From Methanosarcina mazei S-6 (GTDB lineage Archaea; Halobacteriota; Methanosarcinia; Methanosarcinales; Methanosarcinaceae): a stretch of DNA of 64,000 bases. Each line of letters begins with the position of its first letter. Position 1 is the first letter of the stretch. A program made the position numbers and the translations under genes. The notes beneath the pieces are model-generated. The model was not told where the DNA came from. It worked only from the letters and a program-made list of their open reading frames with translations, and did not search any database. Location: NCBI RefSeq assembly GCF_000970205.1, contig NZ_CP009512.1, positions 1,364,001 through 1,428,000 on the forward strand, given 5' to 3'. Of this stretch, positions 34,501-54,439 are shown in pieces.

Positions 34501-35059
34501 AATTATATTCCTTGATTCGTTCCTTGTACTCTCTAATAGTTTCAGTTATCCATATATTGAAATCTCCACTTTTTTCTTTTAACATGGAAAGTGTTTTGGA
34601 AAAATCCATAACCACAAACTCGTTATTTTCCCATCTACATAAGGGGATTCTAAAGATATCCAAGTCATTTGACTTATCGTAGAGATGGATGTAGCTGAAA
34701 TGGTTCACACCCCCACTCTCGAGAAGATCATCAGGGTCATCTTTCTTTTTCGCACAAAATCCTGTAAGCAAGTACTTGTGTTCATATAACCCTTCATCAA
34801 GTTCCCATTCAGCCAGAACATGCGTTGTCCTATTTGGATCCCCTCCTTCAAACATAGCCTTAAAAGGTTTTTTTGAATCAAGATGTGATTTCGGTATGAT
34901 GCACTGCAATAATAGCATTACAAGGACGGATTTGCCACCACCGTTAACAAGTTCATACGTTGCGCTAAGACCGTCAAAAGGCATGAGAAAATCCTGGTAT
35001 ATGCCCTTGCCTTCATTGAACTGGGCATTAATAATTCGGAGGTTTTTAAGTTTCGGCAT
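31484..35059 (-). pseudogene. jetC: Wadjet SMC-like ATPase jetC, N-terminal part, disrupted
   Basis: This 1191-codon frame starts with an SMC/MksB-like ATPase head containing Walker A NGGGKSVL (about 39-46). Long coiled coils around a central hinge-like region follow (about 600-760). Codons up to 1182 are native; the last nine come from the IS. The protein should pair with JetA and JetB as a loop-extruding complex that presents circular plasmid DNA to JetD. Its start overlaps the jetB stop by 14 bases. The ABC signature and Walker B lie beyond the insertion, so the product cannot hydrolyse ATP. The reconstructed length is about 1465 residues. Confidence 0.92.
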
Positions 35060-35801
35060 TCTTTTCTTCCTCCAAACAAGTCAAATCATCAATGAACTCT
35101 ATTATGTCTGTTTGAACGTCTGACCTGTTATACGCTTCAGACACGATTGCTTTGAATCTTTCCGTAGGATAAACTGCATTATTGTGCTCATCTACCAGTC
35201 TGTGTTTTTTCATAAAAATAACAGTTTCATTTATGATCGCAGTCTTTGAACTGGTACCTTTTTGTTTGATCTCAATATCTGAATCATCTCTGAATTCTAC
35301 GTTTGGCAAACTATCCCATAAGTCTTTAATTTCCCTGAAATTAAATTTATACTCTTCACTGATTTTATCCAGATCTTCAAAATCAGATAATGCCCGAATT
35401 TTTGCTTCTATAATTCCTATAAGGTAATTTTTAGGAAGGTTTATGCGAAGTGTGTCATGAAAGGATTCTTTGTAAAATTCGCTTACTATTACATTCATTA
35501 TGAAAAAGACTGTGTACATTTCGGGGTTTTTGAATCCTCTCCCGAGTTCATTTTTAACATCTTCATTAGTATAACCAAAAACACGGTTTCCAACTCCGGC
35601 ACTCAAAAATATTGAATCTCCGCGTCCGCAAACGTATAGTCCGAGTTTTTCAGCACAAAAATCAAGCGCTTCCCTTATTTCGCTTTCTTGTTCATAACGC
35701 ATGAAGTGTTTTGGATACACAAATCTTTCAATTGAGCCAGTTGACAACATCTGATAAAGCATATCAAAAGCGATTCCTAGATTCTCTTTTTCAAATTTCA
35801 C
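35046..35801 (-). CDS. jetB: Wadjet JetB (MksE-like kite subunit)
   Basis: This is a 251-residue, mostly helical winged-helix protein in the position of the KITE subunit of MksBEF-like complexes, between jetA (4 bases upstream) and jetC (14-base overlap). The C-terminal part (VYPTERFKAIVSEAY) precedes an acidic tail. In Wadjet it links the kleisin JetA to the ATPase heads. The identification rests mainly on operon position, size and fold character. It is complete and probably translated, but its partner jetC is broken. Confidence 0.8.
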   Translation of the reverse strand: MKFEKENLGIAFDMLYQMLSTGSIERFVYPKHFMRYEQESEIREALDFCAEKLGLYVCGRGDSIFLSAGVGNRVFGYTNEDVKNELGRGFKNPEMYTVFFIMNVIVSEFYKESFHDTLRINLPKNYLIGIIEAKIRALSDFEDLDKISEEYKFNFREIKDLWDSLPNVEFRDDSDIEIKQKGTSSKTAIINETVIFMKKHRLVDEHNNAVYPTERFKAIVSEAYNRSDVQTDIIEFIDDLTCLEEEKNAET

Positions 35802-35805
35802 ATAA

Positions 35806-37380
35806 TCACTTCATAATAAATTTCATGTTTGATATATAAGCACTGAACCCTTTTTTAATATTTATTATCTCGTCCGGAAAGGATGTAACGATAAAAGTGG
35901 AACTTGAAAGACCGAGTGCTTCATGTGCGGATAGTAACGCCTCTAGGATCAGTTCACGATTGGAGTGGCACGATAATTTTAGTTTATTAAATTCAAACCG
36001 AGTGACGTTTAGTTCCTTGTTTTTCAGTTTTTGAGAATTATCAGAGGCTTGCGCGTTTACATCATCAATATCAACATTAAGCGAAAACAGGAAGGGAATC
36101 AGATCCATATTTTGCAGTGCTTCAGGTCCAAGTGTATCTTCAACTGTCTTAAGATATACTTCAAGGGTTAAATCCCCGCCATGATCCTCTACACACCCGA
36201 GTAACGCATGAGCATAAACTCTAAAATTGTTTCTTTGCCGTTCATCAACTGTTCCATCAATAAGCTTTTTTTCACTCCATTCATCATTCTGCCTTGTTTC
36301 GGAAACTTCAGATTTTTTACGGCTTACAATCTGCGATTCAAATATTTTGTATAAACTAAAAGACCTAGTGGTTTTAGGTAGGAACATAGGGTGCATTCCA
36401 ATAACATGAACATCATTTGGATAATTTTGCCTAATATTGTTTTCGAGGATTTCCTTAAAATGCCATTTTCTATCGAATAACGAGTTTACCCTGATCCGAC
36501 AAATTTTCTCATACTCTCCCGGCAGGTCTGTATACTCCTTCAGTAATCCGGAGTGAAGCTGATAACCACGGTCGAGCTCAGTAGAAATTTGCTTAAGGAT
36601 CAAGAAATCCTTTTCATTCGCACTTTTGTTGGAAATATTGATGATTTCTTCGTGATTTTTTGTTAATTCTAAAAGAGTGGTTCTGACTTCTTCAAATAAA
36701 ATTTTTTCTTGTTGAAGTTGGCTAAAAACTCCCTCTGAGAAAATGGAATAATCCTCAACTACATCGGCTCCTCCATACAGCATTTTCTCTAACAAATTCT
36801 GTTTTTTTTCTTTTTTGCGAAGAACCTCAAGATTGAGTTCTCTTACCGTATTCAATGCAGTTACGAAAGAACCATTTTCAATCTGCTTTTTAAAAAGGAT
36901 TAAGCTCACAGAAATTTTTGATTCCTCTGGCAGTTCCTTGATGCTTATCATGAAATCAAGTCCTGCATCACTGATTTGGTAAGCCTTGTTACTTACATCA
37001 TATTCTATCAGATGCACATAATGACCATCTTTCTTTCTACGGATAGGGTCCATATATTCAAAATGATACGATTCTCCGTCTCTGTCCGTTTCTAGAATAG
37101 TCAATAATGTACGTGTTACCTGTTTGCTGTTAGTCTCATAATCCATATACATTTCATTGAGTATATTCTTTATATGTACCTCAATTTCATCTACCTTCAG
37201 GGAACGTCCACGTAGTTTTCCCTCCTCGATTAATAAGGTCAAAACACTAAGTGCGATATAGGGTAAATCATATTCCAGATTATTCCGATAAGAATACGCA
37301 TAGATCCGGAAAAATGGATAATAACATTTTAAATGCCTCATCCGTTCGTTAATGTCCTGGAAATGTTTAGCGTATTCCAA
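35806..37380 (-). CDS. jetA: Wadjet JetA (MksF-like kleisin subunit)
   Basis: This 524-residue protein has an N-terminal winged-helix part (PFFRIYAYSYRNNLEYDLPY), a central helical region and a C-terminal segment ending in FSAYISNMKF. It corresponds to the kleisin that bridges the JetC heads. The start overlaps the jetD stop by 14 bases, and jetB follows after 4 bases, which shows tight translational coupling. A second Met at residue 14 is a possible alternative start. It is intact. Confidence 0.82.
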   Translation of the reverse strand: MEYAKHFQDINERMRHLKCYYPFFRIYAYSYRNNLEYDLPYIALSVLTLLIEEGKLRGRSLKVDEIEVHIKNILNEMYMDYETNSKQVTRTLLTILETDRDGESYHFEYMDPIRRKKDGHYVHLIEYDVSNKAYQISDAGLDFMISIKELPEESKISVSLILFKKQIENGSFVTALNTVRELNLEVLRKKEKKQNLLEKMLYGGADVVEDYSIFSEGVFSQLQQEKILFEEVRTTLLELTKNHEEIINISNKSANEKDFLILKQISTELDRGYQLHSGLLKEYTDLPGEYEKICRIRVNSLFDRKWHFKEILENNIRQNYPNDVHVIGMHPMFLPKTTRSFSLYKIFESQIVSRKKSEVSETRQNDEWSEKKLIDGTVDERQRNNFRVYAHALLGCVEDHGGDLTLEVYLKTVEDTLGPEALQNMDLIPFLFSLNVDIDDVNAQASDNSQKLKNKELNVTRFEFNKLKLSCHSNRELILEALLSAHEALGLSSSTFIVTSFPDEIINIKKGFSAYISNMKFIMK

Positions 37381-38446
37381 TCATACGCAGCCTCCTCATA
37401 TCTGTTTTATTGACAACTTCTTGAGGAATGTATTTTTGAGCAGATATAATCTCTTCAATTACTTTTCTAGTCTCGTGGCTGAAGAAATCGATGAATGGAG
37501 ACAGCGACTCTTCGTTTATTTTACGGCATTTCCGCAGAGGTTTGGCGTTTTCCTGCCCAGATTTATTCAACATATATTCATATAATGAAACTGCTGGACG
37601 AATATTATACTCTGAAAAGGTACTCCTTAACCGATTAAAAATAAGTATTCCTTCCTGATCCATATCCCCAAAATAATAATAATGATCAGTTGTCTTACCG
37701 CCCACCATCTGTATAAACTCAAACTTACTTACAACGGCGTTTCCTTCCCCGTATATAAGTAAATGAATATCTGTAAGTTCTCTGCTTAAAGTTGCATCCA
37801 TGAACGTCCAGAAGGTATCCTTATTCTCCACAATAAGAATTTTCCGGGCTAATATATCACTTAAACTTTCATACTCTTTGGCTTTAATATAGAAAAATGG
37901 TTCTGGTTTTTTCTCAGCCTTTATGTCCTTGATTGTCAGGTTCAGTCGGTTTAAAATAATTTCTCCGTCAATAGATGCATTTTTTGGGGAAGTAATTGCT
38001 TTTTCATCCCCGAATATCAAATATGATCTTTCATTAGCAGTAAGGACTTCACAATCATTATCCATCATTAAATCATTAATCCTGCGTATAAACTCCCTAT
38101 GCGCACGATATTCCTCAATGTGCTTTAAATAGTAGCTCATATTGAGTTTGCATGAAAGTCCTCTCAGTTCTTCTGCTGGTATCTCTTCATCACACTGTCT
38201 GAAGTAATGTCTATTAATCTCATACTTGCTAGGTAATCCCTCATACTGTTGCAGCTTTTTTGCGCTTTTCAAAGGGACCAGCACATTCTCATCGATCAGT
38301 TTTTTAATTACATCAATAAACGGCCTGTTTAGCCATGGATCTGAAATTAAGTTTATACCGCCGTTTTTCAGTTCTCCAACTATGTATTTTATCTCAACTC
38401 TTTTTTTTGCATATTGCTCAAGTATTTCTAAAACTTGTTCCTCCAT
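37367..38446 (-). CDS. jetD: Wadjet JetD nuclease (Toprim, topoisomerase VI-like)
   Basis: This 359-residue protein has an N-terminal winged-helix region and a C-terminal Toprim domain. The acidic motif is HYYYFGDMDQEGILIFNRL (about residue 262), and an upstream Glu lies in KILIVENKDTFW. JetD cleaves plasmid DNA presented by the JetABC motor. It is the first gene of a jetD-jetA-jetB-jetC operon. The ribosome site AGAAGGAAATG precedes the ATG. It is divergent from the UvrD-like gene, with about 200 bases between them for both promoters. Confidence 0.88.
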   Translation of the reverse strand: MEEQVLEILEQYAKKRVEIKYIVGELKNGGINLISDPWLNRPFIDVIKKLIDENVLVPLKSAKKLQQYEGLPSKYEINRHYFRQCDEEIPAEELRGLSCKLNMSYYLKHIEEYRAHREFIRRINDLMMDNDCEVLTANERSYLIFGDEKAITSPKNASIDGEIILNRLNLTIKDIKAEKKPEPFFYIKAKEYESLSDILARKILIVENKDTFWTFMDATLSRELTDIHLLIYGEGNAVVSKFEFIQMVGGKTTDHYYYFGDMDQEGILIFNRLRSTFSEYNIRPAVSLYEYMLNKSGQENAKPLRKCRKINEESLSPFIDFFSHETRKVIEEIISAQKYIPQEVVNKTDMRRLRMIGIR

Positions 38447-38654: not shown

Positions 38655-41600
38655 ATGTTAGAAGAACTCCTCACAAACCTCACTTCCAGGCAAAGAGATG
38701 CAGTTGAGCATGTTTCAGGTCCTTTCTTAATCCTTGCAGGGGCAGGTACAGGTAAGACTACAACAATCACTGGCAAAATTGCCTGTATGATCAAAGTACA
38801 GGGAGTTAAACCGGAAAAGATTCTCGCTCTTACTTTTTCAAGAGAAGCTGCCAGAAATATGGAAAAGAAAATCTATGGACTTTTAGGGCAAGGGACCAAT
38901 GTAAAGGTAAGTACTTTTCATGCCTTCTGTGCCGAATTGATAAGAGATAATTCTGAAAAGTGTGGGATTTCGGAGCAATTTACCATTTTTGAGGAAATTG
39001 ATGTAGCTATCCTGATTTATAAGGATCTGGGTACAACTTCGAGAAATGCAACTTTATACTCCAGCACAATCGCAAAAGCAAAGGATTTGAACATTTCTAT
39101 TAGTAAGTTCAAAGATTATCTTGAAACAAGAAAGGAATCGTTACTTAACTTTGCTGAAGAAAGCAGATTTGAGCAGTTTTATAACGAGTGCAAGGTCAAC
39201 CTGAACACATTTCATTTAAAGGATAGTAGTCAGCAAAAAGCCCTGAAAGATGAAAAGAAAAAATGGCAGAAATTTATCGGACTTTATGATGAATATCGTA
39301 AATATGCTGATTTCATCAACGCCTGGGAAACGTATGAAAAGAGAAAGAAAACCCTGAATTGCCTTGATTACGGGGATCTTAATAAAATTGCCCTTGATTT
39401 CCTTAACACCTATGGCACAGCAGAGTTGAATGACACCTATACCCATATTATTGTTGACGAGTTTCAGGATACTAATTACGTGCAGTTCGAACTTATCAAA
39501 CACCTGACTGCAAGGGAGAAAAATATCACAGTGGTTGCAGATGCAAACCAGAGCATCTATGCTTTCCGGGGAGCATACGCGAATAATATAGAAGAGTTTA
39601 AAGAGCAGTTCGGGATTTTAGAAAAAGATGTTGTATCCCTTGATACGAGTTTCAGGTCAACAAATAAGATCCTCAAGGTAGCCCACAGACTGATCTCACA
39701 TAATTACCCAGAAGACCGAAAAGGCGAATGTCTCCTTCTCAAGAACTGTAATGATAACGAGGGCAAAAATGTAGTCGTCCAGGAAACAAAAGATGATGGC
39801 GAAGAAGCAAGAAAAATAGTAGAACAGATTGAACTCTATATTGAAAATGATGTTCCCCTTAAAGAAATTGTAGTCCTTTATCGAACCCATAACCAAGGAA
39901 GACATATCAGACAGGCGCTCCAGAGGCGCGAAATTCCTGTGATTGTGAAGGATGATGCAGACTATTTGAAACAACCCGAAATCAAGACCGTACTTTCCTA
40001 TCTCTACATATTAAACAATCTCATGGATCCTACTCCAAGAGGCACAGAGGCCTGGTGGCGACTCTTTCATTACAATAACAGCCTTAAAAATAGCGATTCA
40101 GTTCGTATAGGAGAGTACACCCAGCGAAACAAAGTTCGTTTTCAGGAAGCCATTTACCACCATCTTGACGAGATAGAGTTAAGCGAAAACGGATGCAAGA
40201 CTGTCGAAAAAGTAAAAGAAACAATCAGGGTTCTTAGCGAGAAAAAACTGCTGGATGTCTCCGACCTTCTTCTTGAAATTTACGATCTAAGTGGAATTGT
40301 AAGACACCTTAATAGGCTGGATACGCTGAAAACCAGGGAAGCTTTTCTTAACCTCCGAAACCTGCATGAAATGGCAAAGAAATTTGAACAATTTCATAAT
40401 AGAGAGCTTTTTGGCTTCATCGATTACCTTGAGATCCTTGACGAGATGGGGGGCAACCCTGAATCTGCAAAAATCAGGGAAGACGATGCTGTAAGCCTGA
40501 TGAGCATCCATGCAGCAAAAGGACTCGAATTCAGGGTTGTTTTTGTGACCAGCATGGCAAAGGATAAATTCCCTCTATTAAGGGGTGGGCAAGATTTTCT
40601 AATTCCACTGGAAATGATGGAACAGTACTGTGATCTTTTCTCAGCGAAGTTAAGTGAAGCAGAGCTCGAGAAGGCTATTAAGGAACGAAAAAAAGAAATA
40701 AGATTTGAAGACGAACGCCGACTTTGTTACGTCGCGTTTACGCGAGCAAAAGAAGACCTTATACTTACTCTTTCTCTTGAGTATGGCGGTAAGGAGCGGG
40801 AGCCATCCGAGTTTTTGATGGAAATTGGATATGATCGCTGGAGAGACCTAGAAAGTCCTCTGGACAGGGAAGCAAACGCTAACACAGAAATGGAGACTAC
40901 TTTTGATGCTCTTGACCTGTCTTACCGGAGAGACTTTGAGATCAAAACTGCAGGTTTTGTGAGAGACGATGAGCTTGAAAGGGAGAAAAACAGGTGTATA
41001 CAACAGCTTATTGAAGCCCTTGATAAGGACCTTGAGGAAGCTGTACACTACCTGATGGTATACAGAGCCCTCAGGGACGGCGGATGCGGGAATTACCTTG
41101 AAGAATTACAGCATAAATGGAGTACGATAGATCCTGCTATGAGAGCAGGAGAGATCCTCACAAAAATAAAGGTCAGAAATAATGGTTTAAGGTTCAGTCC
41201 GGAAGCATTCAGTTTCAGCTTTTCCGCTTTGAAGGCATATGAAAACTGTCCGAAACAGTATGAATTGCAGGAAATCCTGCGCATGCCAAGCCGGAAGAAT
41301 GAAGATTCCACAGGAGCTATGACAAGGGGGAGTTTCGTACATAAGGTACTTGAAACCGCAGTTAAAGAAAAGGTTGCAGAAAAGCAGGCACTATATGAGA
41401 TAGCTAAAACTCTTCATAAAAAGCCAGAATGGATATATGCAGATCTCGAATCTACCCTTCCTCTTTTTGAAGTATTCTGGCTCCGAAACAAAGACCGGAT
41501 CTCAAATAACCTCATGGTAGAACAGTGGTTTTCAGTCCCTATAGACGGCTTCGTTTTCAAGGGTATTATTGATAGAATCGATTTGCTTGACCCCTCCAAA

Positions 41601-41960
41601 AAAGAGGTCGAGATAATTGATTACAAAACTGGGAAATATGATGTGAGTCCCGAAGACCGTTCAAGGCAGCTTCTACTCTACGCAAAAGGTTTTGAACACA
41701 TGTACCCCGGATACACGGCGAAAAAGCTCACACTTGACATGCTGGCTCTAGAAAAACCCAGGAGTTTTGAGCTGCAGGAGGACGGAGAGTACAGGGGTAC
41801 TGAAGGCAGAGTAAGTCCACTTGATAGAGGAACAATCGACTCTATGGTGGAGACTGCACAAAGGATTGCTCATGATTATGAGCATGGTTTTGAAGGGACA
41901 GAGGATCCGGAAATCTGCAAGGAGTGCGGGTTTAGATTGTACTGTGACGGTGTTAATTAA
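38655..41960 (+). CDS. UvrD-like helicase fused to a Fe-S PD-(D/E)XK nuclease
   Basis: This 1101-residue superfamily 1A helicase has motif I GAGTGKTTTITGK (about 28), motif II IIVDEFQDTNY (about 267), SIHAAKGLEFRVVFV and VAFTRAKEDLILTLS. A C-terminal RecB-like nuclease follows, with FKGIIDRID and EIIDYKTGKYD (about 968-995). Four cysteines (YENCPKQY plus CKECGFRLYC at the end) match the AddB/Cas4-type Fe-S cluster arrangement. It unwinds and degrades DNA ends. The stop overlaps the mcrB start by one base (TAATG), so it belongs to an operon with mcrB and mcrC and probably processes DNA cut by McrBC. GGGGCAT precedes the ATG. Confidence 0.88.
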   Translation: MLEELLTNLTSRQRDAVEHVSGPFLILAGAGTGKTTTITGKIACMIKVQGVKPEKILALTFSREAARNMEKKIYGLLGQGTNVKVSTFHAFCAELIRDNSEKCGISEQFTIFEEIDVAILIYKDLGTTSRNATLYSSTIAKAKDLNISISKFKDYLETRKESLLNFAEESRFEQFYNECKVNLNTFHLKDSSQQKALKDEKKKWQKFIGLYDEYRKYADFINAWETYEKRKKTLNCLDYGDLNKIALDFLNTYGTAELNDTYTHIIVDEFQDTNYVQFELIKHLTAREKNITVVADANQSIYAFRGAYANNIEEFKEQFGILEKDVVSLDTSFRSTNKILKVAHRLISHNYPEDRKGECLLLKNCNDNEGKNVVVQETKDDGEEARKIVEQIELYIENDVPLKEIVVLYRTHNQGRHIRQALQRREIPVIVKDDADYLKQPEIKTVLSYLYILNNLMDPTPRGTEAWWRLFHYNNSLKNSDSVRIGEYTQRNKVRFQEAIYHHLDEIELSENGCKTVEKVKETIRVLSEKKLLDVSDLLLEIYDLSGIVRHLNRLDTLKTREAFLNLRNLHEMAKKFEQFHNRELFGFIDYLEILDEMGGNPESAKIREDDAVSLMSIHAAKGLEFRVVFVTSMAKDKFPLLRGGQDFLIPLEMMEQYCDLFSAKLSEAELEKAIKERKKEIRFEDERRLCYVAFTRAKEDLILTLSLEYGGKEREPSEFLMEIGYDRWRDLESPLDREANANTEMETTFDALDLSYRRDFEIKTAGFVRDDELEREKNRCIQQLIEALDKDLEEAVHYLMVYRALRDGGCGNYLEELQHKWSTIDPAMRAGEILTKIKVRNNGLRFSPEAFSFSFSALKAYENCPKQYELQEILRMPSRKNEDSTGAMTRGSFVHKVLETAVKEKVAEKQALYEIAKTLHKKPEWIYADLESTLPLFEVFWLRNKDRISNNLMVEQWFSVPIDGFVFKGIIDRIDLLDPSKKEVEIIDYKTGKYDVSPEDRSRQLLLYAKGFEHMYPGYTAKKLTLDMLALEKPRSFELQEDGEYRGTEGRVSPLDRGTIDSMVETAQRIAHDYEHGFEGTEDPEICKECGFRLYCDGVN

Positions 41961-44392
41961 TGAAATTGACTAAGAAAAATATATTGGAAGCTATCTCGAT
42001 TGCCAGATTAATTGTTGATGAAAATTTGGTAGGGAGCCAATTATACGAAAGAGATGATGAAGAGATAAGGATAAAAAACAGATATAACTCGACTATTAAA
42101 CCTAAAATTGAAGAATTTAAATCAAATAACGATGGAAATACGCCAAATAAACTTTTAAAATTGTATTTAGAAGTGTTTATAAGTAAAAAAGGATACAGCG
42201 ACAAATTTGACGTAAAAGGATTTCATTATAAAGGTCAAGTTGTTAATTCATATGTTTGGGCTGCTATCACAAAAAAAGATAGCTCAATTGATGACATGAA
42301 GGCCTCTAAATGTCCTCAGCTTTATATACGGATCGCTGATTCTTACATTCTCTTTGGCTTACGCTATGGAAAACATGTCCAAAACAGTGACAAATGTGTT
42401 CAATTTGTTAAATCTGATAAAGGATTGAAGAAGCAACTTCTTGAATTAGTAAATTCCAATAAAGAGATTCATGTCTTTGATGAGAATGAAACTTATGAAG
42501 TTGAATTAAGAAAATATGAAGATATAGATAATAACTGGACAGAGAATATAAGGCTAGTTAGTGTAGTAAAAGAAAGCGAAATTCCGGACAATATTGAGAA
42601 TAGGATATATAATACATTGGATAATCTTTTTGAAGTATTCTTAAAGATATCTGAAATTGAGTCTGTATATGTAAAAGGACGTGGTTCTGTTATAATTGAG
42701 GAAGATTCTGCTTCAATGAAGAATGAATGTCTTCGAATGAAAAAACTACTATCCAACAAAAAACAGGTTATTCTATATGGTCCACCTGGAACAGGTAAAA
42801 CCTACGTTGCATCCAACTTCATAAAATCAAATACTTCTGACCAGATATACAACGAAAAACAGACTATTCCTTATGACTCTTCTAAAAAAGATGATACTTT
42901 TGTTACGTCTAATTTAATAAAATCAGATACATCTGACCAGACAACCAAAGAAAAAATCTCTATTGATCGAAAATTTTTCTTTTATGGGTCTAAGCTTACT
43001 TATCCGAAAATTCAAGAGCTTTGGAACAAATCAGAATCTACACTAGATATTAATAGTAACATGCATAGAAAAGAGACAATTGATATAATAAAGGCTGGAG
43101 ATATGCTTTTTATTTATGCTGCCAGTCCTAGAAAGAAAGTTATTGGTATTGCTGAATTTATTCAAAAGGAACTCCAATGGGATGGTAAACTAATTTTTAG
43201 AATCAAAAATCTAAAACAAATGAGAAATGGTCCTACATTGGAGGATCTTAGAAATGACAGTATATTATCAAAATCTGAACCTATTATAAATGAATTAAAA
43301 GGCAACTTGAATCCAATTAATAAAGATGCAGCTTTAAGACTGCTGAAATTATCGAAGGTTTCACTTGATAATTCAAATGTCGAGAATATAATTGAACCAG
43401 AAGTTGTGCAAAATCATGAATTCTCAAAGGTTGAGAAAATAGCCGAACCAGAAATTTCAAAGAATCATGAATTAATCACTTATTACGAATTTATTACATT
43501 CCATCCCAGCTTTTCATATGAAGATTTCATTGAAGGGCTACGCCCTCTTAACAATGATGATGGTCAGATATCTTATAAGGTAGACGAAGGTTTGTTTAAA
43601 AGATATTCTAGATTTGCTTTCAATGCTCTCATGGCTAAAGCAGAAATCGAAAAAGAATGGGGGCAGATGGAAAATATTCCACAACTGACCGTAGAAGAAA
43701 AAGAAAAAGCCAAAAAAGCCGCTGGAGAAGTTTCATTCTACCTTGTAATTGATGAAATCAATAGAGGAGATATTTCGCGTATTTTTGGAGAATTGATTAC
43801 ACTTCTTGAGTCAGATAAGCGCCTTACAGCTGACAATGAACTAATTATCACTCTCCCATACTCCAAAACAAAATTTGCAGTTTCACCTAATCTCTATCTT
43901 ATAGGCACCATGAATACAGCTGACAAATCAATTGCTCTAATTGACATTGCACTCAGGCGCCGTTTTGGATTTATTGAAATGATGCCTGATTATAGTGTAC
44001 TCGAAGAGAAGCTAGTAAATGAGGATAAAGATATCAAGGAAGTATTCGATCTTTCAATTCAAGCGCTTAAAAAAGTCAATGAAAATATCCTCAAAACCTA
44101 CGATAGGGATCATCAAATAGGACACAGTTATTTATTAAAACTCAAAGACTCTAAATCACGCAATGATGCAATTGAGGATTTCCGTTTCATCTGGTATTAT
44201 GAAATCCTTCCGCTTATGCAGGAATATTTCTATGACGCACCTGCAAAACTCAAACAGGTTTTGGGGAATGAATTTATAGTAGTTGAGAATCGCTCATTTT
44301 CCTTTATTGATAACCTTGAGGGGGAAGAGTTCATAAAAACCATCCAGAGAGTGGTAAATTCAGAAAAGAGGCAGAACGAAATAGGTGACTAA
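41960..44392 (+). CDS. mcrB: McrB-type GTPase with an EVE-like domain inside the AAA+ module
   Basis: This 810-residue protein opens with an N-terminal MrcB-like domain (about 60-190; LYLEVFISKKGYSDKF, YILFGLRYGKH). Walker A YGPPGTGKT follows at 273-281. Then comes an insertion of about 200 residues whose core (about 336-466: IKAGDMLFIYAASPRKKVIG, RLLKLSK) looks like an EVE/PUA-like reader of modified bases. The AAA+ fold resumes at about 505 (FITFHPSFSYEDFIEGLRP), with Walker B FYLVIDEINRGD, the McrB signature MNTADKSIALIDIALRRRF and the C-terminal lid. Short internal repeats flank the insert. With McrC it should translocate and cut DNA with modified bases. Confidence 0.88.
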   Translation: MKLTKKNILEAISIARLIVDENLVGSQLYERDDEEIRIKNRYNSTIKPKIEEFKSNNDGNTPNKLLKLYLEVFISKKGYSDKFDVKGFHYKGQVVNSYVWAAITKKDSSIDDMKASKCPQLYIRIADSYILFGLRYGKHVQNSDKCVQFVKSDKGLKKQLLELVNSNKEIHVFDENETYEVELRKYEDIDNNWTENIRLVSVVKESEIPDNIENRIYNTLDNLFEVFLKISEIESVYVKGRGSVIIEEDSASMKNECLRMKKLLSNKKQVILYGPPGTGKTYVASNFIKSNTSDQIYNEKQTIPYDSSKKDDTFVTSNLIKSDTSDQTTKEKISIDRKFFFYGSKLTYPKIQELWNKSESTLDINSNMHRKETIDIIKAGDMLFIYAASPRKKVIGIAEFIQKELQWDGKLIFRIKNLKQMRNGPTLEDLRNDSILSKSEPIINELKGNLNPINKDAALRLLKLSKVSLDNSNVENIIEPEVVQNHEFSKVEKIAEPEISKNHELITYYEFITFHPSFSYEDFIEGLRPLNNDDGQISYKVDEGLFKRYSRFAFNALMAKAEIEKEWGQMENIPQLTVEEKEKAKKAAGEVSFYLVIDEINRGDISRIFGELITLLESDKRLTADNELIITLPYSKTKFAVSPNLYLIGTMNTADKSIALIDIALRRRFGFIEMMPDYSVLEEKLVNEDKDIKEVFDLSIQALKKVNENILKTYDRDHQIGHSYLLKLKDSKSRNDAIEDFRFIWYYEILPLMQEYFYDAPAKLKQVLGNEFIVVENRSFSFIDNLEGEEFIKTIQRVVNSEKRQNEIGD
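42803..42957 (+). repeat. Imperfect repeat in mcrB before the EVE-like insert
   Basis: VASNFIKSNTSDQIYNEK and VTSNLIKSDTSDQTTKEK are two copies with a short spacer. The similarity is also clear at DNA level. The repeat sits right after Walker A, at the boundary of the inserted module. Confidence 0.75.
43379..43477 (+). repeat. Imperfect repeat in mcrB after the EVE-like insert
   Basis: VENIIEPEVVQNHEFSK and VEKIAEPEISKNHELI are adjacent copies of about 50 bases. They form the linker that returns from the EVE-like insert to the AAA+ fold. Confidence 0.75.
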
Positions 44393-45743
44393 GTTGACCA
44401 TTTCGATTGCAACTCTTTTTGAATACGTTACTTATAATGTAGTCCTGTCAACAGAAAAAGATTATTATTCTGAAAATTCAAGGACCCTTCATTTAACTGA
44501 AGAAACTCTTAATGAACTTGAAAAGATTAACAAAACCAATAAATTTCTGGATATCGGAAGAAAAACCCTCAAACCACGGAATTGTATTGGAGTCGTAAAA
44601 GCTGGTAGTATCACAATCGAAATATTGCCTAAACTGTTTAAAGATGACAGATATGAACAGCATAGGGCCGTTATTGCAAGAAACCTGCTCAAAATGCTTT
44701 CATATTCTGAAAAATTGTCATTAAAGGAGATAGATTCGGCAGACCTTGATACAGAAGAACTTGATTTCTTTGAAATTTTTATCTACTTTTTTGCGAAGAA
44801 TTTAAATGAATTAATCAAATCGACTCAGAGAAGAGAGTATATCAAAAATTCTGAAGAGCTCCGTTTTATCAGGGAAAGAATAGACACAAGACGCTATACA
44901 AATCCCGCACGCTTGCATATTATCCCATGTAATTACCATGAGTTATCTATTGATACTACCCTCAATCGTACACTAAAATACACATGTTATTTGATGTCTA
45001 GAATGGTAAAAAATTTCAATTCATTCAGGCTGCTCAGATCAATATCAGGAATTCTTGATTCAGTTACACTTTATCCTGTATCACTTGCAGAGATTGACAG
45101 GATTTCTTTTACTAGGTTAAACAGAAAGTTCGAGCCGTTTATCAGAATATGCCGGATATTTCTCTCCCATTCCACGCTTACTCTTCAAGCTTCAGATGTG
45201 GAGACATTTTCTCTTCTAATACCTATGGAAACTCTTTTTGAAGAATTCATAGCTAAAGTGATAAAAGAGGACCCAGATTATTTCTTTGGCCCGCAAACTT
45301 CGGTCTCAACACAGCAATATATCGGTAAATTAGCTAGCTCTGAGGATGGCTCTGGCGTGTTCAACCTACAGCCGGATATTGTTATTAAAAGAGGGCCAGA
45401 TGTTGCAATCATTGATACTAAATATAAGCTTCTGGATGACGAAAAACGCAAATATGGAGTGTCACAGGCTGATATGTACCAAATGTATGCGTATGTGACA
45501 AAAAAAGATGCTATTAGTTCGATGCTCCTTTACCCAGATACTGAATTAAAAGAGCAAAGGACTTTTTATTATAACCTGGAAAATGAAGGAAAAAGAAGTG
45601 TGCCGCTCTATATTACATCGATAAAGCTATCATACGACTTGACAAATGAGAAAGAGTGGTCTGAGTTCAGAAAAGATCTAAGAAATGTTCTCACAAAATT
45701 TTTTCCTAATCTTAATCTCTTAGGATTTACAAAATTGAACTGA
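44385..45743 (+). CDS. mcrC: McrC nuclease subunit
   Basis: This 452-residue McrC has an N-terminal domain (IEILPKLFKDDRYEQHRAVI) that binds and stimulates the McrB ring. Its C-terminal PD-(D/E)XK nuclease has LQPDIVIKRGPDVAIIDTKYKLL (residues split here as QPDIVI and IIDTKYK). The GTG start overlaps the mcrB stop by eight bases. A preferred alternative start is not evident. It is intact and should form the cutting subunit of the modification-dependent restriction system. Confidence 0.9.
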   Translation: MTKLTISIATLFEYVTYNVVLSTEKDYYSENSRTLHLTEETLNELEKINKTNKFLDIGRKTLKPRNCIGVVKAGSITIEILPKLFKDDRYEQHRAVIARNLLKMLSYSEKLSLKEIDSADLDTEELDFFEIFIYFFAKNLNELIKSTQRREYIKNSEELRFIRERIDTRRYTNPARLHIIPCNYHELSIDTTLNRTLKYTCYLMSRMVKNFNSFRLLRSISGILDSVTLYPVSLAEIDRISFTRLNRKFEPFIRICRIFLSHSTLTLQASDVETFSLLIPMETLFEEFIAKVIKEDPDYFFGPQTSVSTQQYIGKLASSEDGSGVFNLQPDIVIKRGPDVAIIDTKYKLLDDEKRKYGVSQADMYQMYAYVTKKDAISSMLLYPDTELKEQRTFYYNLENEGKRSVPLYITSIKLSYDLTNEKEWSEFRKDLRNVLTKFFPNLNLLGFTKLN

Positions 45744-45936: not shown

Positions 45937-47985
45937 TTAAATCAGCGCCATCGACTTGTACACTGCATCTATAGGATCCTCATAAAACGAAATCTGGAAC
46001 TTACTGAAAAGATCCGGTGGCACTGTTGCAATCTTTCCTGCAGAAGAAATTGGAATCATTACCCTCTTTGCCCCTGCATCAAGGCAGACCTGCAAAAGAC
46101 CAGCAAGATTTTCAAGTATACCTACAGAGCCGCCGATTGTCATACTCCCTAGAATTGCAGTCTGTTCCTGAAGTGACCTTTCCAATGCGCCGGAGCAGAG
46201 GCTGATGAAGGCTGGAAGGGCAAGTTCTTCTGACATGCCAACTCCGTAAAGGTCCTGGACGTGCAAAAAGTAATCCTTTTCTTTTACAGATATGCTCTGA
46301 CTTATGGATTTTGCATTGGCTTTGAAGTAATTGAATGCCGTTTTTATGGATTCCTTTGTCTGAGTATTTGAGCCTGTACCTGATTTTTCATATTTTCCCG
46401 AGCCTGCAACTACCTGAACTTCAAACTTGTAAATCCCAATTTTACCAGATTCGGTAGCTCCAACAGCATAGGCTTCACCAGGTTTTGTGATACCTGCAGG
46501 GATAATCTTGTTTCCACCGCTTTCTGGGACGGACACGAAGGATTCTTTCAGGTTTTCATTGTCAATATAGGAGAAATTGACATCGAAGAACTCGATCCCT
46601 CCTATTTTTTTAAGCTGCTCTTTCACGCGCCTTCTTCCAACGAGGGTATACTCAAGGATCTCCTGCGCCTGTTCCCTGGTGATATTCTCATCCGGGTAAA
46701 TGAGTTTCATAAGACCTGAGAAGGTCTTTTTAACGGCGATCACATCACGCTGGTTCAGGTTGTTCCCTAGCTTAAAGAATCTGTTTATGTTGTCGGCGTA
46801 GGACCTCTTCCTCATTTCCCTGAAGAATTCTGCAATATAGTCAACTATGAATCCATACCTGTCCGTAAAGTGTTCAGGCCTGAACTTCGGGATTTCCCAG
46901 CCAGGGATATAATAGTACATCCTGTCGAAAAAGGCGGTATCACTGTTCATGGTTTCCGGGAAGGGAGAGAACAGGTGTGAAGTCTTTAATAAGGACTCAA
47001 TACTCTGGTTGACATTTCCAACAAAAACAATGGAAGCGTTTGCGTTCTTTTGCTCTTTTCCCCTCGCAAAGGAGCCTGAGGCCATATAGTCTTTAAGGAT
47101 CTGTATTCCGTCCTTGTCTTTGAAACGGATTCCTGCAACCTCGTCAAACGCCACAACGTCCCAGAACCCAACAAGCCCTATCTGTCGGGTGCCCATGTTG
47201 TAGAAAAGGTTTGCAACTGTGGTCTGCCCTCCGGACATCAGGATGGTGTTTGGGGATATTTCCTTGTAAACATGAGATTTTCCAGTACTTTTCGGGCCGA
47301 GTTCGCAGAGGTTATAATTATTTTCGACAAGAGGAACAAGCCTTTCGAGCATATGCCACTTTGTGGAAGTTTCAAGCTGGGTAGGCTCCATCCCAATGCT
47401 TCTCATCAGAACGTCAATCCACTCATCTTTGGTGAAGTTCTTTCTTTCAACCAGGACCTCCTGGATGTTTACATTCGGGATCTGGATGGGTTTTAAACTG
47501 GAGATTATGAATGGCGAAGAAGCTGATTCTGTTGAGTATTCCATCTTGATCATGCACCAGATACCGCCACCGAGAAGCTTGTCGTATTTTATGACATAGT
47601 CAGAGTCGATCTCAATGCTTTTGAGCCCGAGATTGGAGAAAGTAGCTTCGTAGATGTCTCTCCTTTCGTTGAGCATAACCGTGATCTTGTCAATAACCGT
47701 ATAGTAGCCCGTCTCACGGATCTTCGACTTGATCTTTTCGGCTTCATCTGGGCGGACATAGTTCTGGGACAGGATACTTTTTACTATCTGGATGCCTTCC
47801 TGGATTACTTCTTCGTCCTCGTCAGCACAATAGGAGCCAAGCAGGTATTCCAGCACGTAAACAGGGACGTTGTGCCCAACTTTCAGCAGTTTTGTAAGGT
47901 CTTTTCGTACAACTCTGCCAGGGAAATACTGAATTAATTTTCTGTCGGTTTCAAGGATTGCTGTCTCAAGAGATTCTTCGGTCAT
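45937..47985 (-). CDS. brxL: BREX system BrxL, AAA+ with Lon-like C-terminus
   Basis: This 682-residue protein ends the BREX locus. The AAA+ core has Walker A LGPKSTGKSHVYKE (about 228) and Walker B VVAFDEVAG (about 278), with a downstream sensor IVFVGNVNQS. The C-terminal Lon-like domain (about 500-682) contains LYGVGMSEELALPAFISL where Lon has its catalytic Ser, but the catalytic Lys position (Lon GGLKEK) reads GILENLAGLL, so classical protease activity is doubtful. BrxL is a DNA-binding hexameric restriction effector in type 1 BREX. GGACAGGAT precedes the ATG. It lies 71 bases downstream of pglZ and is probably cotranscribed with it. Confidence 0.92.
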   Translation of the reverse strand: MTEESLETAILETDRKLIQYFPGRVVRKDLTKLLKVGHNVPVYVLEYLLGSYCADEDEEVIQEGIQIVKSILSQNYVRPDEAEKIKSKIRETGYYTVIDKITVMLNERRDIYEATFSNLGLKSIEIDSDYVIKYDKLLGGGIWCMIKMEYSTESASSPFIISSLKPIQIPNVNIQEVLVERKNFTKDEWIDVLMRSIGMEPTQLETSTKWHMLERLVPLVENNYNLCELGPKSTGKSHVYKEISPNTILMSGGQTTVANLFYNMGTRQIGLVGFWDVVAFDEVAGIRFKDKDGIQILKDYMASGSFARGKEQKNANASIVFVGNVNQSIESLLKTSHLFSPFPETMNSDTAFFDRMYYYIPGWEIPKFRPEHFTDRYGFIVDYIAEFFREMRKRSYADNINRFFKLGNNLNQRDVIAVKKTFSGLMKLIYPDENITREQAQEILEYTLVGRRRVKEQLKKIGGIEFFDVNFSYIDNENLKESFVSVPESGGNKIIPAGITKPGEAYAVGATESGKIGIYKFEVQVVAGSGKYEKSGTGSNTQTKESIKTAFNYFKANAKSISQSISVKEKDYFLHVQDLYGVGMSEELALPAFISLCSGALERSLQEQTAILGSMTIGGSVGILENLAGLLQVCLDAGAKRVMIPISSAGKIATVPPDLFSKFQISFYEDPIDAVYKSMALI

Positions 47986-48056
47986 TTTTATCCTGTCCCT
48001 ATTAAATATCCCTACTCTTTTTTATCCCGAATTTTTGTGCATAATTTATTTTCAAC

Positions 48057-50759
48057 TTAGAAGTCATCAAAGTCGCCAATCAGAAGGTCAAGTTCGAATG
48101 GAATCCGTGCAATATCTTTAATTTCAGCTGGGTCTTCGTCAATAAGCCTAAGGTAATATGTTTTGTTTTCAAGATTGTTTCCGAGGGTGAGCAGGATATT
48201 ATACTGCCTTTCTTCGGGTTCATCGGATTCGTTATTGACAATAATGATTTTTTCATCGCTGACCATTTTTTCCTGCCCACCATCAATATCCCATAGAGAA
48301 ACTTTAATGGTGCGGGATTTCATTTTGTCAGTAACTTTTTCTGTCTGGAAAATCTTTACTTTAAATTTGTTGCTTGTAATCTTTTTCCGGTCATTTATCA
48401 CCGAGACATTGACTTTACCATGCTTGATACCTTTCTTCTCAATGGCTTTTTCATTCCGCCGATGATTATATGTTAAAACTGGAATTGCAATTTCCTGAGG
48501 AGAGGCTCCTCCGTGCACGAAATTGAGCCCCCCTCCCTGAAGTTTGAACCTGAGATCTGCTTTAGGGACATAGGCAAAAAGGGGAGTGTGATCCTGCCCG
48601 AGCATATGGCGCATGTCAAAGCTGTGTATGTTATCCAGTGAATTATCCTGTGTAAGTTCCTGGTCACTCAGGATAAATCTCTTTGTTGTGTCAATTATGC
48701 GAGATTTGTCAAATAATGAAGTATCTACTTTATCTACACTTTCCATATCGTCTCTTCTGTAAAGGAAACCGTGATCTGCTGTGACAATGATATTTGTTGT
48801 GTTCAGTCGATCACTCAAATACTTGACAAGTTTCTTAATTTCAACAATTGTTTCTTCTACAGCAATGAAAACGCTATTCTCTGAGGACTGTTTATCCCCA
48901 GTTGAATCTATTTTATTGTGGTATATGTAAAGGACTCTTTTTCCCTTGATGAGTTCTCTTGCTTCTTCCCGGCTGTACCTCATGAAGTCTTCATAATTAA
49001 ATGCAAGTGAATCTTCATATTTACTCTGCAGGATTTTGTTCCTTTTTTCAAGTCCTTCAGAACTTATGCCATCCACAAAGATTTCTCTTCCCTTATATTC
49101 CAGAGCATTATGTGGGAGTAAACTTGCCATTCCAAGCTTTGTGTATGAGGGTAAAACTCCTGCCATGTAGCTGAGTTCGGGAAGTCCCCAGGTATCTTTG
49201 TTGAGGATTTCAAAAAGCTCTGCTGCTGCTTCGTAGCGAAGTGCATCGGAGATTATGACTGCAACTTTACTCCGATCATCCTTTTGCAGGATCTTATTTG
49301 CTACGTGCTGTTTGTAAAAACTCTTCTGGCTTTCTGCAAGCTCGATCTTCCACTGCCCTTTAAGATCAGATTCAATTAGGCTACTCCATTTCAATAACAA
49401 TTTTCCGAGTAGCTTGTTGGTGTAAAGGTCTTCAACCTGAGGTCTGAGGTTTTTCTTCAGGATATCTTTTTCCTGCTCTTTGTCATAATAATAGTAAAAT
49501 TTCCTATAGAGGTAATCAATCTGGTAGTAAGTCTCAGCATACGCTTTGAATAACTCGTATAAGCTAGGAGTGTTTTCAAGTGCGTTAGATGCTTTTGGAT
49601 TATCATAATAGTTCAGGGAAAACTGGAAGAGCTTAACCGCATATCCAAGCGCGTTGTAGATATTCTCATACTCTGAAAACCAGTGCTTTGTCCTGCGGGT
49701 ATCAATCCAGGAAAGATAGTTTTTAAAGTCATCTTCTGTTGAATTTACAGGACTGTTCAGGGATTTGAGTATATGAACAATTAAAGCTTTATCAAATGTC
49801 TCAACAGCTTCGGCTTCAAGATATGTCTGCACATCTCGCTTATCAAGCGCTGCCTGCAGGTTCTTTTCCAGATCATGGTTATTTTCTTCAAGGATTTCCC
49901 TTGTATATTTTTCAAATGTATTAGAATCCCGTGAGCTGTCCATCCAGTGCTTGAGGAAGATCTGACACTCGTTTTCTTTTCGGTTCACATACTGGTCGTA
50001 ACCTGAAAGGGAAATTCCTGAATACCTCTTCATGTGTGTAATCAGGAAACTAAGGAAAAGCTTCTTCAGGGTAGGATTCTTTGCCGAAAACCCAAAGTCC
50101 TCTTCTGAAAGTTCCCAGAAGTTTTCCTTCAGTCCGAATTTTGAGATATTCTCCAAGATAGGATTTTCAGCTTCATCCAGTGATTTGAGCATGATGTCCC
50201 TAACAATCTGTTTGAACTCAGGAGCCTGCGTTTTTGAAAAAACAGCCAACATGCCCAGAATGAACTCTTTTTCACGCCAGTCTTTCTGGTAGAACTTTTT
50301 TAAAGGCTGAACTCTTTCTTTCTGGTTGCCAAAGAATTTCTCGTATTTAGTGAAGAAGTCGTCAAGATCATGCCCGTCAATCTCAAACTCGCTCTTAATG
50401 TCTGAAATCCGGCTGTTTTCGAATCTGGAAGAATAGAGCTGGATATCAAAAAGCCAGTTAGATTCGTGTGATCTTTCTTTGTCTGGACAGTAGATTAAAT
50501 ATTTTGATTCCGTATCTTCAATTTCGAGGAGTTTTTTGGTTTCAAAGTAATTGTTGTCAAGGATATGGAATTTGATGTTATTTTCTTTCAGGATCTGTAT
50601 TATTTCTTCAAGCTCTTCTCCGGGAGCATTCTTCTCCTGATCCCAGGCAGTTTTATCCCTGTCGTACCAGAAAACTATTTTTCTTTTCTCATAGTCTTTG
50701 AATTCAGAAGGAGAAAATTTTTTGAGTATGCTACCACTGGTTTTTTCTACGTTGACCAT
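48057..50759 (-). CDS. pglZ: BREX-1 PglZ, alkaline phosphatase-fold protein
   Basis: This 900-residue PglZ is of type A. Metal-site motifs of the alkaline phosphatase fold are KVAVIISDALRYEAAAEL (about 498), IIVTADHGFLYRR (about 655) and the family hallmark NFVHGGASPQEIAIPVL (about 745). The N-terminal half is helical and specific to PglZ. It is required for BREX exclusion and for methylation with PglX, though its substrate is not settled. It is upstream of brxL on the same strand. An unrelated ATPase gene, a hicB-hicA pair and other inserts separate it from pglX. Confidence 0.93.
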   Translation of the reverse strand: MVNVEKTSGSILKKFSPSEFKDYEKRKIVFWYDRDKTAWDQEKNAPGEELEEIIQILKENNIKFHILDNNYFETKKLLEIEDTESKYLIYCPDKERSHESNWLFDIQLYSSRFENSRISDIKSEFEIDGHDLDDFFTKYEKFFGNQKERVQPLKKFYQKDWREKEFILGMLAVFSKTQAPEFKQIVRDIMLKSLDEAENPILENISKFGLKENFWELSEEDFGFSAKNPTLKKLFLSFLITHMKRYSGISLSGYDQYVNRKENECQIFLKHWMDSSRDSNTFEKYTREILEENNHDLEKNLQAALDKRDVQTYLEAEAVETFDKALIVHILKSLNSPVNSTEDDFKNYLSWIDTRRTKHWFSEYENIYNALGYAVKLFQFSLNYYDNPKASNALENTPSLYELFKAYAETYYQIDYLYRKFYYYYDKEQEKDILKKNLRPQVEDLYTNKLLGKLLLKWSSLIESDLKGQWKIELAESQKSFYKQHVANKILQKDDRSKVAVIISDALRYEAAAELFEILNKDTWGLPELSYMAGVLPSYTKLGMASLLPHNALEYKGREIFVDGISSEGLEKRNKILQSKYEDSLAFNYEDFMRYSREEARELIKGKRVLYIYHNKIDSTGDKQSSENSVFIAVEETIVEIKKLVKYLSDRLNTTNIIVTADHGFLYRRDDMESVDKVDTSLFDKSRIIDTTKRFILSDQELTQDNSLDNIHSFDMRHMLGQDHTPLFAYVPKADLRFKLQGGGLNFVHGGASPQEIAIPVLTYNHRRNEKAIEKKGIKHGKVNVSVINDRKKITSNKFKVKIFQTEKVTDKMKSRTIKVSLWDIDGGQEKMVSDEKIIIVNNESDEPEERQYNILLTLGNNLENKTYYLRLIDEDPAEIKDIARIPFELDLLIGDFDDF

Positions 50760-50977
50760 GAAAATTCATATCCTGCTATTAAGTATGGTAAGGCTTAATT
50801 GAGAGCTAGAGATTTAGATACTTTATCCCTGAAATACTCTTTTATTTTTAAAAGATTTTGCTAACTTTTGGGTTGGTCATTCATACCGCATGTAAAAATT
50901 ATCCGTCTTGTCATTTCCTATACATCACCCAAATTGGATCCAGGACTTGATAATAAGGACAATTGTCTTTTTTGATA

Positions 50978-52363
50978 TCATGGAATGAGCTCTTCCAGCT
51001 CCCATACAAGAAATCCATCATCTTCCAGGTTCTTTCTACCTTTGACCTTTCGAGCCACTATCCCGACTTTCAATTTTTGACCGGATATTCCTTTTACTAA
51101 TTTTGTTTTATCGAGTGTTAATTCCAGAATCTCTCTAGCTTCGTTTTCAGCCAGTTCTTTATTCTTGACTTCAATTGCCAGGGCTTTTCTCCCCTGGTGA
51201 TCTACTCCAAGAATGTCAATCTCATCTCCCTTCCGGTTCCACCAGCTCCCAAGCTCTGGATAATCGCTGATCATTTTTTCAACCAGCAGTTCATGAACTA
51301 TGTCCTCGAATATCTTGCCTGTGTAACTCTGCCATTCCTTCCGGACCTTTTCCAGCATAGGAGAATAATTGCCTGCCATATACCGGCTGTACATAGGATA
51401 TATGAAGCGACCATAAAACCTGAAAAAATTATCCTTCAGGAAATACCGTCCTCTCTTGCTTTTTTCAGGACTGTCCGTGATAGGTATCCGGTGTTCCACT
51501 ACTCCCAGCAGATCTGTGAGATCGTAAAAATAAGGTGACAATGAGCTCGAAGAAACATGTGTCATGTCTGAGATCTCGCTCATCGAGCATCTTCCCTGTG
51601 ATATCGCTGAGATTATTTCATAATATGTGGAGTGCTCCTTCCCAAATTCCTCTATCAGAATTTCCCTCACTTCATTTTTAAGCGGTGCAAACTCGCTGAA
51701 TATCAGCTTTTCAAGGGCATCATCAAATCCTGTGCACTGATACTTTTCAAACAGGCGATAGTAATACACCGTCCCTCCGAAAAGGAAGTATAGATTCAGT
51801 TTTTCTTCCGGATTTTTTATACCCATGCCATCGAGCATCTCAAATGTCTCAAGGACCGTAAAGGGCTTTATGGTCAGAATATTATCGGCACGTTTGAAGA
51901 GCGGAGCCTGTTCCTCAATGAAGATTTTTCTTATCATGCCAATAGAAGACCCGGAAACGATAAGAAAGATTCTGCAATTGTCCGGCTTCATGTCCCAGTA
52001 TCGCTGCAGCTGAGTAATGAAAGATGGGTAGACTTTCTGGAACCTCTGGAATTCATCAATCGCTATTACCAGGTCCCTGTCATAAGAGGTAATGAATTTG
52101 AGGAAATTCTCAGGTTCATCGACTTTTATGTAATCCGGCAGGTCCAGTTTCTCCTTTAAAAGCCGGTCGAACTCGTCCATCAGAATGTTAATGCTTTTGT
52201 TACTGTCAACGAAAAGATACAGCGCTTTCCTGTTCCGTGTGAACTGCTTGATCAGCTCGGTTTTTCCTACCCTTCTTTTGCCGGTTATGACAAAAAAAGA
52301 TGGTTTCCCCTGATCGAGCAGTTCCATAAGTTTAAGCTCTTTCTGCCGGTTGTAGAATTGCAT
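50978..52363 (-). CDS. Archaeal AAA+ ATPase with DUF234/nuclease-like C-terminus
   Basis: This 461-residue protein is of the archaeal ATPase family. Walker A is VITGKRRVGKTEL, Walker B-like is LVIAIDEFQRF, and sensor 1 is IFLIVSGSS. A winged helix (CSMSEISDMTHVSSSSLSPY) and a C-terminal domain with WWNRKGDEIDILGVD and ALAIEVKNK follow, a PD-(D/E)XK-like pattern. The family often sits in mobile or defence regions; its function is unknown. The ATG at 52363 is preferred: the upstream ATG (52399) would add a dozen residues encoded by a palindromic AT-rich stretch that looks like a promoter or operator. Confidence 0.85.
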   Translation of the reverse strand: MQFYNRQKELKLMELLDQGKPSFFVITGKRRVGKTELIKQFTRNRKALYLFVDSNKSINILMDEFDRLLKEKLDLPDYIKVDEPENFLKFITSYDRDLVIAIDEFQRFQKVYPSFITQLQRYWDMKPDNCRIFLIVSGSSIGMIRKIFIEEQAPLFKRADNILTIKPFTVLETFEMLDGMGIKNPEEKLNLYFLFGGTVYYYRLFEKYQCTGFDDALEKLIFSEFAPLKNEVREILIEEFGKEHSTYYEIISAISQGRCSMSEISDMTHVSSSSLSPYFYDLTDLLGVVEHRIPITDSPEKSKRGRYFLKDNFFRFYGRFIYPMYSRYMAGNYSPMLEKVRKEWQSYTGKIFEDIVHELLVEKMISDYPELGSWWNRKGDEIDILGVDHQGRKALAIEVKNKELAENEAREILELTLDKTKLVKGISGQKLKVGIVARKVKGRKNLEDDGFLVWELEELIP

Positions 52364-52400
52364 AATGATTATTTTTGTAATAATTATATTTATAATCATT
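52364..52400 (-). promoter_or_regulatory. Palindrome with TATA-like core before the AAA+ ATPase gene
   Basis: Arms AATGATTAT and ATAATCATT form a perfect 9-bp inverted repeat around an AT-only centre containing TATA-like sequence. It ends one base before the preferred start codon. It may be a promoter overlapped by an operator, possibly autoregulatory. Confidence 0.45.
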
Positions 52401-52641
52401 CTCCTGGGAATTCTGGACTCGCTAAAGCATGGAGAAATTTATGCAGCACGCTTACAAACTGACCGTATTTGCAAATTTTCTTGCCCGTTCCTGAAATACA
52501 CGATTAAATTACATTACTAATTAATTATGTTTCATATCAGATACTGATCCACGCGGTGAAAAGTACCCCCTCGACCAGAAACCTTAAACTGGGACATCTT
52601 CCAAAGAGAGATTTTTTATAGCACATAGGAAATCTTTAATC

Positions 52642-52887
52642 ATGGAAGAAACGTACAGGTTTTCAGCTGTCGTCCATAATGAAGGTAAATGGTATGTTTC
52701 CTGGTGTCCGGAGCTTGACATCGCAAGCCAGGGTGAAACAATTGAAGAAGCCATCGAGAACCTGAAGGAAGCAATTGAACTCTACCTCGAAGACGAGGAC
52801 GTCAAAATCCCTGCAGCCAGACAGGTTTTTACCACAACGGTAGAGGTCTCTTCCCATGCCAAAACTTCCCACGCCCTCAGCTCTTGA
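52642..52887 (+). CDS. hicB: HicB-like antitoxin
   Basis: This 81-residue protein has the HicB partial RNase H-like fold: YRFSAVVHNEGKWYVSWCPE, LDIASQGETIEEAIENL and KEAIELYLED. It neutralises the HicA toxin and often represses its own operon; no DNA-binding C-terminal domain is evident here. AGGAAAT precedes the ATG. The gene overlaps hicA by 32 bases, with the antitoxin first. The pair is the only plus-strand unit between pglZ and pglX. Confidence 0.9.
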   Translation: MEETYRFSAVVHNEGKWYVSWCPELDIASQGETIEEAIENLKEAIELYLEDEDVKIPAARQVFTTTVEVSSHAKTSHALSS

Positions 52888-53083
52888 GGTCATCAAGGCT
52901 CTCAACAGCCAGGGTTTTCAGGTCATATCTCAGAAGGGCAACCATATCAAAATGAAAAAGAAGGCTCCGGATAAAATTCTCGTTGTTATTGTCCCGGATC
53001 ATCCCGAAATTCCGTCAGGGACTTTGAAATCTATAATCAGGCAAGCCGGAATGACCGATGACGAGTTCGTCAAGCTTCTGTAA
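52856..53083 (+). CDS. hicA: HicA-like mRNA interferase toxin
   Basis: This 75-residue dsRNA-binding-fold toxin has the catalytic His at position 30 (QKGNHIKMKKK) and the C-terminal IPSGTLKSIIRQAGMTDDEF. HicA cleaves mRNA and blocks growth unless bound by HicB. Its start lies inside hicB, which ensures coupled synthesis. Within a defence island it may act as an abortive or stabilising module. Confidence 0.92.
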   Translation: MPKLPTPSALEVIKALNSQGFQVISQKGNHIKMKKKAPDKILVVIVPDHPEIPSGTLKSIIRQAGMTDDEFVKLL

Positions 53084-53094
53084 TCAAATAAAGG

Positions 53095-53259
53095 TCAAAA
53101 TTTTTTAGTTAAGAATTCGATTACCTCTTCCTCGGATTTCCTATATCGAGATTCAGGAGGTTTGGATTTTTCATTCTTTTCAAATAGAGAATGAAGCTTA
53201 TTAATAGCAACCGGGTCTGATATATGTAAACAGTTTTGTTCCAGATATCTCGACGCCAT
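53095..53259 (-). CDS. Small 54-residue protein of unknown function
   Basis: A short frame begins MASRYLEQNCLHISDPVA and ends EEEVIEFLTKKF. A strong ribosome site (AAGGGGGAAAATT before the ATG) and charged, helix-like composition argue that it is real. It follows the GNAT-like gene by 78 bases on the same strand and is convergent with hicA. It has no recognised family. It could be a partner or antitoxin of the GNAT-like protein, but that is only suggested by position. Confidence 0.6.
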   Translation of the reverse strand: MASRYLEQNCLHISDPVAINKLHSLFEKNEKSKPPESRYRKSEEEVIEFLTKKF

Positions 53260-53337
53260 AATTTTCCCCCTTGTAATTTAATCTTCTCTTTTTTACAACT
53301 ATATGTGTTCTTAATTGATATATGTTCTTTCACTTAT

Positions 53338-54282: not shown

Positions 54283-54439
54283 GATTATCAGATTCCTGAG
54301 AAATGTAGAAAATAATAATCAATACACGCTCCAATCTGTATTAAATTTTGCCAACAATCCTGATTAATTATCTGCGATTTGTTTTAGAACATTCACAAGA
54401 TGCCAATGAGTTCTACAACCTTGCTGGTTCCCTGGCAAG

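Follow-up and report, generated by a model that had tools for sequence, protein, structure and literature searches.

A predicted EVE domain inserted into the AAA+ core of a McrB GTPase from Methanosarcina mazei S-6

In a stretch of 64,000 nt from the Methanosarcina mazei S-6 genome (in the following called the window) we identified by sequence homology a McrB GTPase with an intact downstream McrC, and its AAA+ core is interrupted by an insert of 213 residues. The middle of the insert (residues 339–464) is a predicted EVE domain, as judged from profile comparisons and a modelled structure. With a probability of about 0.7 we regard the locus as a modification-dependent Type IV McrBC system that would restrict foreign DNA by means of an EVE reader tethered to the McrB ring. 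The S-6 McrB varies a known theme and is no new kind of system; new here are the exact architecture, with EVE in the loop between helix alpha-1 and strand beta-2, and an in-frame duplication of the protein's own Walker A segment. In the McrB motor the alpha1-beta2 loop appears as a port for extra modules, which are EVE domains in a single archaeal clade and elsewhere non-EVE inserts of about 128–153 residues. It offers a concrete site at which to ask whether base reading couples mechanically to GTP hydrolysis, and its recognition aids the correct annotation of McrB proteins with a split AAA+ domain. Positions of all features are given in Table 1.

The catalytic motifs of McrB had been described as complete in a sequence-only reading of this DNA, and GPPGTGKT, LVIDEINRG, GTMNTAD and ALRRRF are indeed all found. 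Walker A occupies residues 274–281, beta-2 (FITFHPSFSYEDF) begins at residue 511 and LVIDEINRG at 595, while GTMNTAD is a signature of the NxxD type. Walker A, Walker B, the NxxD signature and the arginines are invariant across the relatives, to which the AAA+ part is 57–60% identical. Membership in the CoCoNuT group was considered and rejected, since it requires an NxD signature and the McrB described here carries NTAD (NxxD). The best match of the AAA+ part in both sequence and structure is the McrB of T. gammatolerans (TgMcrB; 6ut3, 6ut5; 2e-67, Foldseek 2.6e-23). In the phmmer alignment residues 251–295 correspond to 7–51 of the TgMcrB chain and residues 509–553 to 57–101, so that 213 residues (296–508) stand where TgMcrB has 5. 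The insertion site is the loop between helix alpha-1, which follows Walker A, and strand beta-2. An exit from the fold directly after Walker A had been proposed; the chain leaves the fold only after alpha-1, about 14 residues past Walker A.

Table 1. Features of the mcrBC locus and its neighbourhood (positions in the window; residues refer to McrB)
Feature	Position	Strand	Basis or remark
Wadjet type III: JetA3, JetB3, JetC3, JetD3	31484-38446	-	adjoins McrBC genes
UvrD-like helicase with PD-(D/E)xK nuclease	38655..41960	+	directly upstream of mcrB
McrB GTPase with predicted EVE in AAA+ core	41960..44392	+	ORF, 810 aa; AAA_5; TgMcrB 2e-67, EcMcrB 5e-34
N-terminal module, residues 1-245	41960..42694	+	low-confidence predicted fold
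AAA+ part 1, residues 251-295: helix, beta-1, Walker A GPPGTGKT (42779-42802), helix alpha-1	42710..42844	+	TgMcrB alignment; pLDDT ~90
Duplication copy 1, 96 nt, carries working Walker A	42750..42845	+	sequence self-comparison in 64-kb window
Duplication copy 2, 96 nt, apparently decayed P-loop, predicted disordered linker	42846..42941	+	72% identical; AF2
Predicted inserted EVE domain, residues 339-464	42974..43351	+	Pfam PF01878; hhalign 7e-12 to N-terminal EVE domains; AF2; Foldseek
Second linker with 51-nt tandem duplication (43373-43422 / 43424-43473, 76%)	43373..43473	+	mostly pLDDT < 50
AAA+ part 2, residues 506-803: beta-2 FITFHPSFSYEDF, Walker B LVIDEINRG (from 43742), NTAD (43913-43924), ALRRRF, lid	43475..44368	+	alignment to TgMcrB; predicted model
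McrC with PD-(D/E)xK-type nuclease	44385..45743	+	PF10117 8e-75 over full model; D...DTK motif
BREX brxL, pglZ, pglX	45937-59921	-	downstream of McrBC; archaeal ATPase_2/DUF234 gene between pglZ and pglX

The identity of the insert was assessed by sequence profiles and by structure prediction. The Pfam EVE model (PF01878) matched the S-6 insert alone with E=0.0011 and 19.4 bits, the curated cut-off being 23, and matched 5 of the 8 related inserts with a best E-value of 3.9e-06. When a profile of the eight inserts was compared with the PDB, EVE structures came first, though weakly (1zce, E=0.04). The same profile aligned by hhalign to the EVE domains at the N-terminus of other McrBs with E=7e-12 over 123 of 143 columns; this comparison set was drawn from McrBs on viral contigs, and Pfam EVE matched in 12 of its 12 members. 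Judged by these comparisons, the match between insert and EVE is far beyond chance. The S-6 domain is 22–30% identical to the inserts of Archaeoglobales type and lacks some of the aromatic residues conserved in them; the eight-row EVE alignment is too diverse to give patterns.

AlphaFold2 was run on the whole McrB with 39 aligned sequences. The AAA+ blocks reached pLDDT values of mostly 80–96 and the EVE domain of mostly 80–91, while the linkers on its two sides (residues 296–335 and 469–500) stayed almost wholly below 50. In a Foldseek search with the whole-protein model the AAA+ part retrieved 6ut5, and the EVE structures 2ar1, 1zce, 2gbs and 2eve were among the matches. Modelled alone, the insert had the EVE structures 2gbs, 2ar1, 2eve and 1zce as best matches (TM 0.68–0.74 by target length), with ASCH and YTH structures following. 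The proposal of an EVE/PUA-like domain within the AAA+ core of McrB is thereby borne out at the level of prediction: the insert adopts a predicted EVE (PUA-like) fold, and both the model and the TgMcrB alignment place it between the two AAA+ parts.

Both linkers contain tandem duplications. The 96-nt duplication is in frame, with copies 72% identical at the nucleotide level and 16 of 32 amino acids identical; in the second copy the P-loop is changed from GPPGTGKT to DSSKKDDT. Sequence and model indicate that this second copy is a decayed remnant of a duplication inside the AAA+ core that now serves as linker to EVE. The 96-nt and the 51-nt repeats are each the sole adjacent pair of their length and identity in the window, and the duplication of the Walker A segment is absent from the other EVE-insert McrBs.

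The mcrB gene sits in a defence island, with Wadjet type III, the UvrD-like nuclease and BREX as neighbours. The stop codon of the UvrD-like gene overlaps the start of mcrB, and the two are likely part of the same operon; mcrC in turn overlaps mcrB by 8 nt. A UvrD-like helicase-nuclease gene was not seen beside the other EVE-insert mcrBC loci. The N-terminal module of McrB has no relative in Pfam or the PDB, and among 393 genomes a relative was found in one only (G188, 29% identity), where it likewise belongs to a McrB-like ORF. It may possibly represent a second specificity domain. For some relatives (A10) the idea that their N-terminal module is another EVE domain was considered but found no support, with an hhalign probability of 17% and no PDB match. 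PglX of BREX systems methylates host adenine; if it does so in S-6, this methylation would not be expected to be a target of the EVE domain.

We searched an EVE profile in 393 genomes of the phylum, a search for the same architecture in other archaea having been suggested beforehand. EVE following Walker A inside the AAA+ core was found in the S-6 McrB, in 7 further archaeal McrBs (gaps of 166–180 residues) and in one frameshifted copy; several of the 7 come from Archaeoglobaceae. A scan of genome contigs with a four-row EVE profile returned only two loci, both from Archaeoglobales. In all 7 further McrBs and in the frameshifted copy McrC adjoins McrB. In that copy (L156, genome G167) mcrC is intact, and the EVE-insert mcrB next to it is split into two frames of 315 and 422 aa. 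The search also revealed McrBs with EVE before Walker A, for example in G082 of the same genus as S-6; the EVE insert itself was not found in other genomes of the family. A scan of viral contigs with a single protein gave no match, and among about 60 McrBs measured on viral contigs none had EVE at the alpha1-beta2 site, every EVE match being N-terminal.

A tree was built on the AAA+ part with inserts removed. The 8 EVE-insert McrBs and relatives without the insert intermingle in a single clade of 16 members (100/96); the sample was collected by similarity to the S-6 McrB, and frequencies in it are not population estimates. We read the tree as a single gain of the insert followed by about three losses. 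For the inserted EVE, dN/dS was 0.10 and 0.125 in two pairs of relatives, and the AAA+ part gave 0.18 and 0.12, indicating purifying selection on the inserted domain in these relatives.

McrB often uses EVE as its specificity module, and among defence-system proteins with an EVE domain the EVE-McrB arrangement is the most frequent (Bell et al. 2020, PMC7641849). In such fusions, as probably in S-6, EVE is the specificity module of a McrB GTPase that works with McrC; in the McrBs with N-terminal EVE examined here (L059–L061 and those of viral contigs), however, the alpha1-beta2 gap measures 21 residues, whereas in S-6 the domain lies inside the AAA+ core. TgMcrB, with its short alpha1-beta2 loop, carries a YTH-type reader at the N-terminus (PMC7680126), while the putative S-6 reader is inserted in that loop. 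PcdA of Staphylococcus (PMC10602043) resembles the S-6 McrB in combining EVE with a McrB-type AAA+ domain but has two N-terminal EVE domains, a degenerate NTPase and a role in cell division, whereas the S-6 McrB has kept its motifs intact and is encoded next to mcrC. The main text of Bell et al. 2024 (PMC11090510) notes that McrB GTPase domains often contain insertions "likely encoding specificity domains", of which the S-6 McrB is a clear case; supplement aside, that text makes no mention of an EVE insertion or of the alpha1-beta2 site. An EVE domain in the AAA+ core had been considered unusual; it is not unique, as 7 other archaeal McrBs share it and insertions in the GTPase domain had been reported in a general way. 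We found no literature text that names EVE at the alpha1-beta2 site or a P-loop duplication.

By homology, McrB would form a GTP-driven hexamer activated by McrC. We infer that six EVE domains would hang from this ring on their tethers and bind a modified base in foreign DNA, which the N-terminal module might contact as well; GTP hydrolysis would power movement along the DNA, and cleavage would fall to the McrC nuclease. Niu et al. (PMC7680126) argued against threading of DNA through the McrC-blocked pore, and readers outside the ring fit this argument, which is no proof of them. The inserted domain might instead be an accessory that contacts protein (the neighbouring McrB, McrC or the helicase) or RNA, DNA specificity being set by the N-terminal module. 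EVE-insert relatives with a complete upstream part do keep separate N-terminal regions of other types, and close relatives without the insert still keep AAA+ and McrC, which makes the insert dispensable for the motor. Against an accessory role, the insert most resembles the EVE domains that provide McrBs with specificity from their N-terminus, and EVE domains are considered to bind modified bases (PMC7641849), so that we hold such a role to be unlikely. Quite improbable in our estimate is a function of EVE as a switch at the end of alpha-1, in which binding of a modified base would pull alpha-1, alter the way that subunit binds or hydrolyses GTP and gate the motor, the decayed P-loop segment acting as flexible regulatory linker. 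Base reading had been envisaged right next to nucleotide sensing, which finds no support: the junction sits at the end of alpha-1 distal to the P-loop, and EVE is held by two linkers predicted to be disordered. Reading might be coupled to GTP hydrolysis, but with disordered tethers of this length tight coupling is unsupported for the S-6 McrB.

The tandem duplications of both linkers could reflect relaxed constraint in the S-6 copy, and together with the divergent EVE and the lack of the insert in other genomes of the family they would suit a decaying system whose reading function is gone. This we regard as very unlikely, as no catalytic motif is missing from the intact ORF, McrC has its full length and the AAA+ part retains the identity to relatives given above. 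That the insertion arose as an assembly artefact or from two fused genes has its sole point in favour in the absence of the insert from close relatives. A single stop-free frame, a one-contig genome and above all the recurrence of this insertion at an identical site elsewhere, which already refutes it, reduce its probability practically to nil.

The alpha1-beta2 site also holds modules other than EVE. Among the approximately 60 McrBs measured on viral contigs, 5 have non-EVE inserts of 128–151 residues at this position. A match on a Vibrio plasmid (H10), taken up as candidate carrier, has no insert; the match on an Acaryochloris plasmid, a candidate for EVE, does have an insert at the site, but one similar to the non-EVE module found in L003 and L005. 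Pfam returned no family for the non-EVE inserts of L003, L005 and L072. Altogether such inserts, of 128–153 residues, were observed at the site in L003, L005, L072, L077, L078, L079, L081 and L133, with archaea, a cyanobacterial plasmid and viral contigs as carriers.
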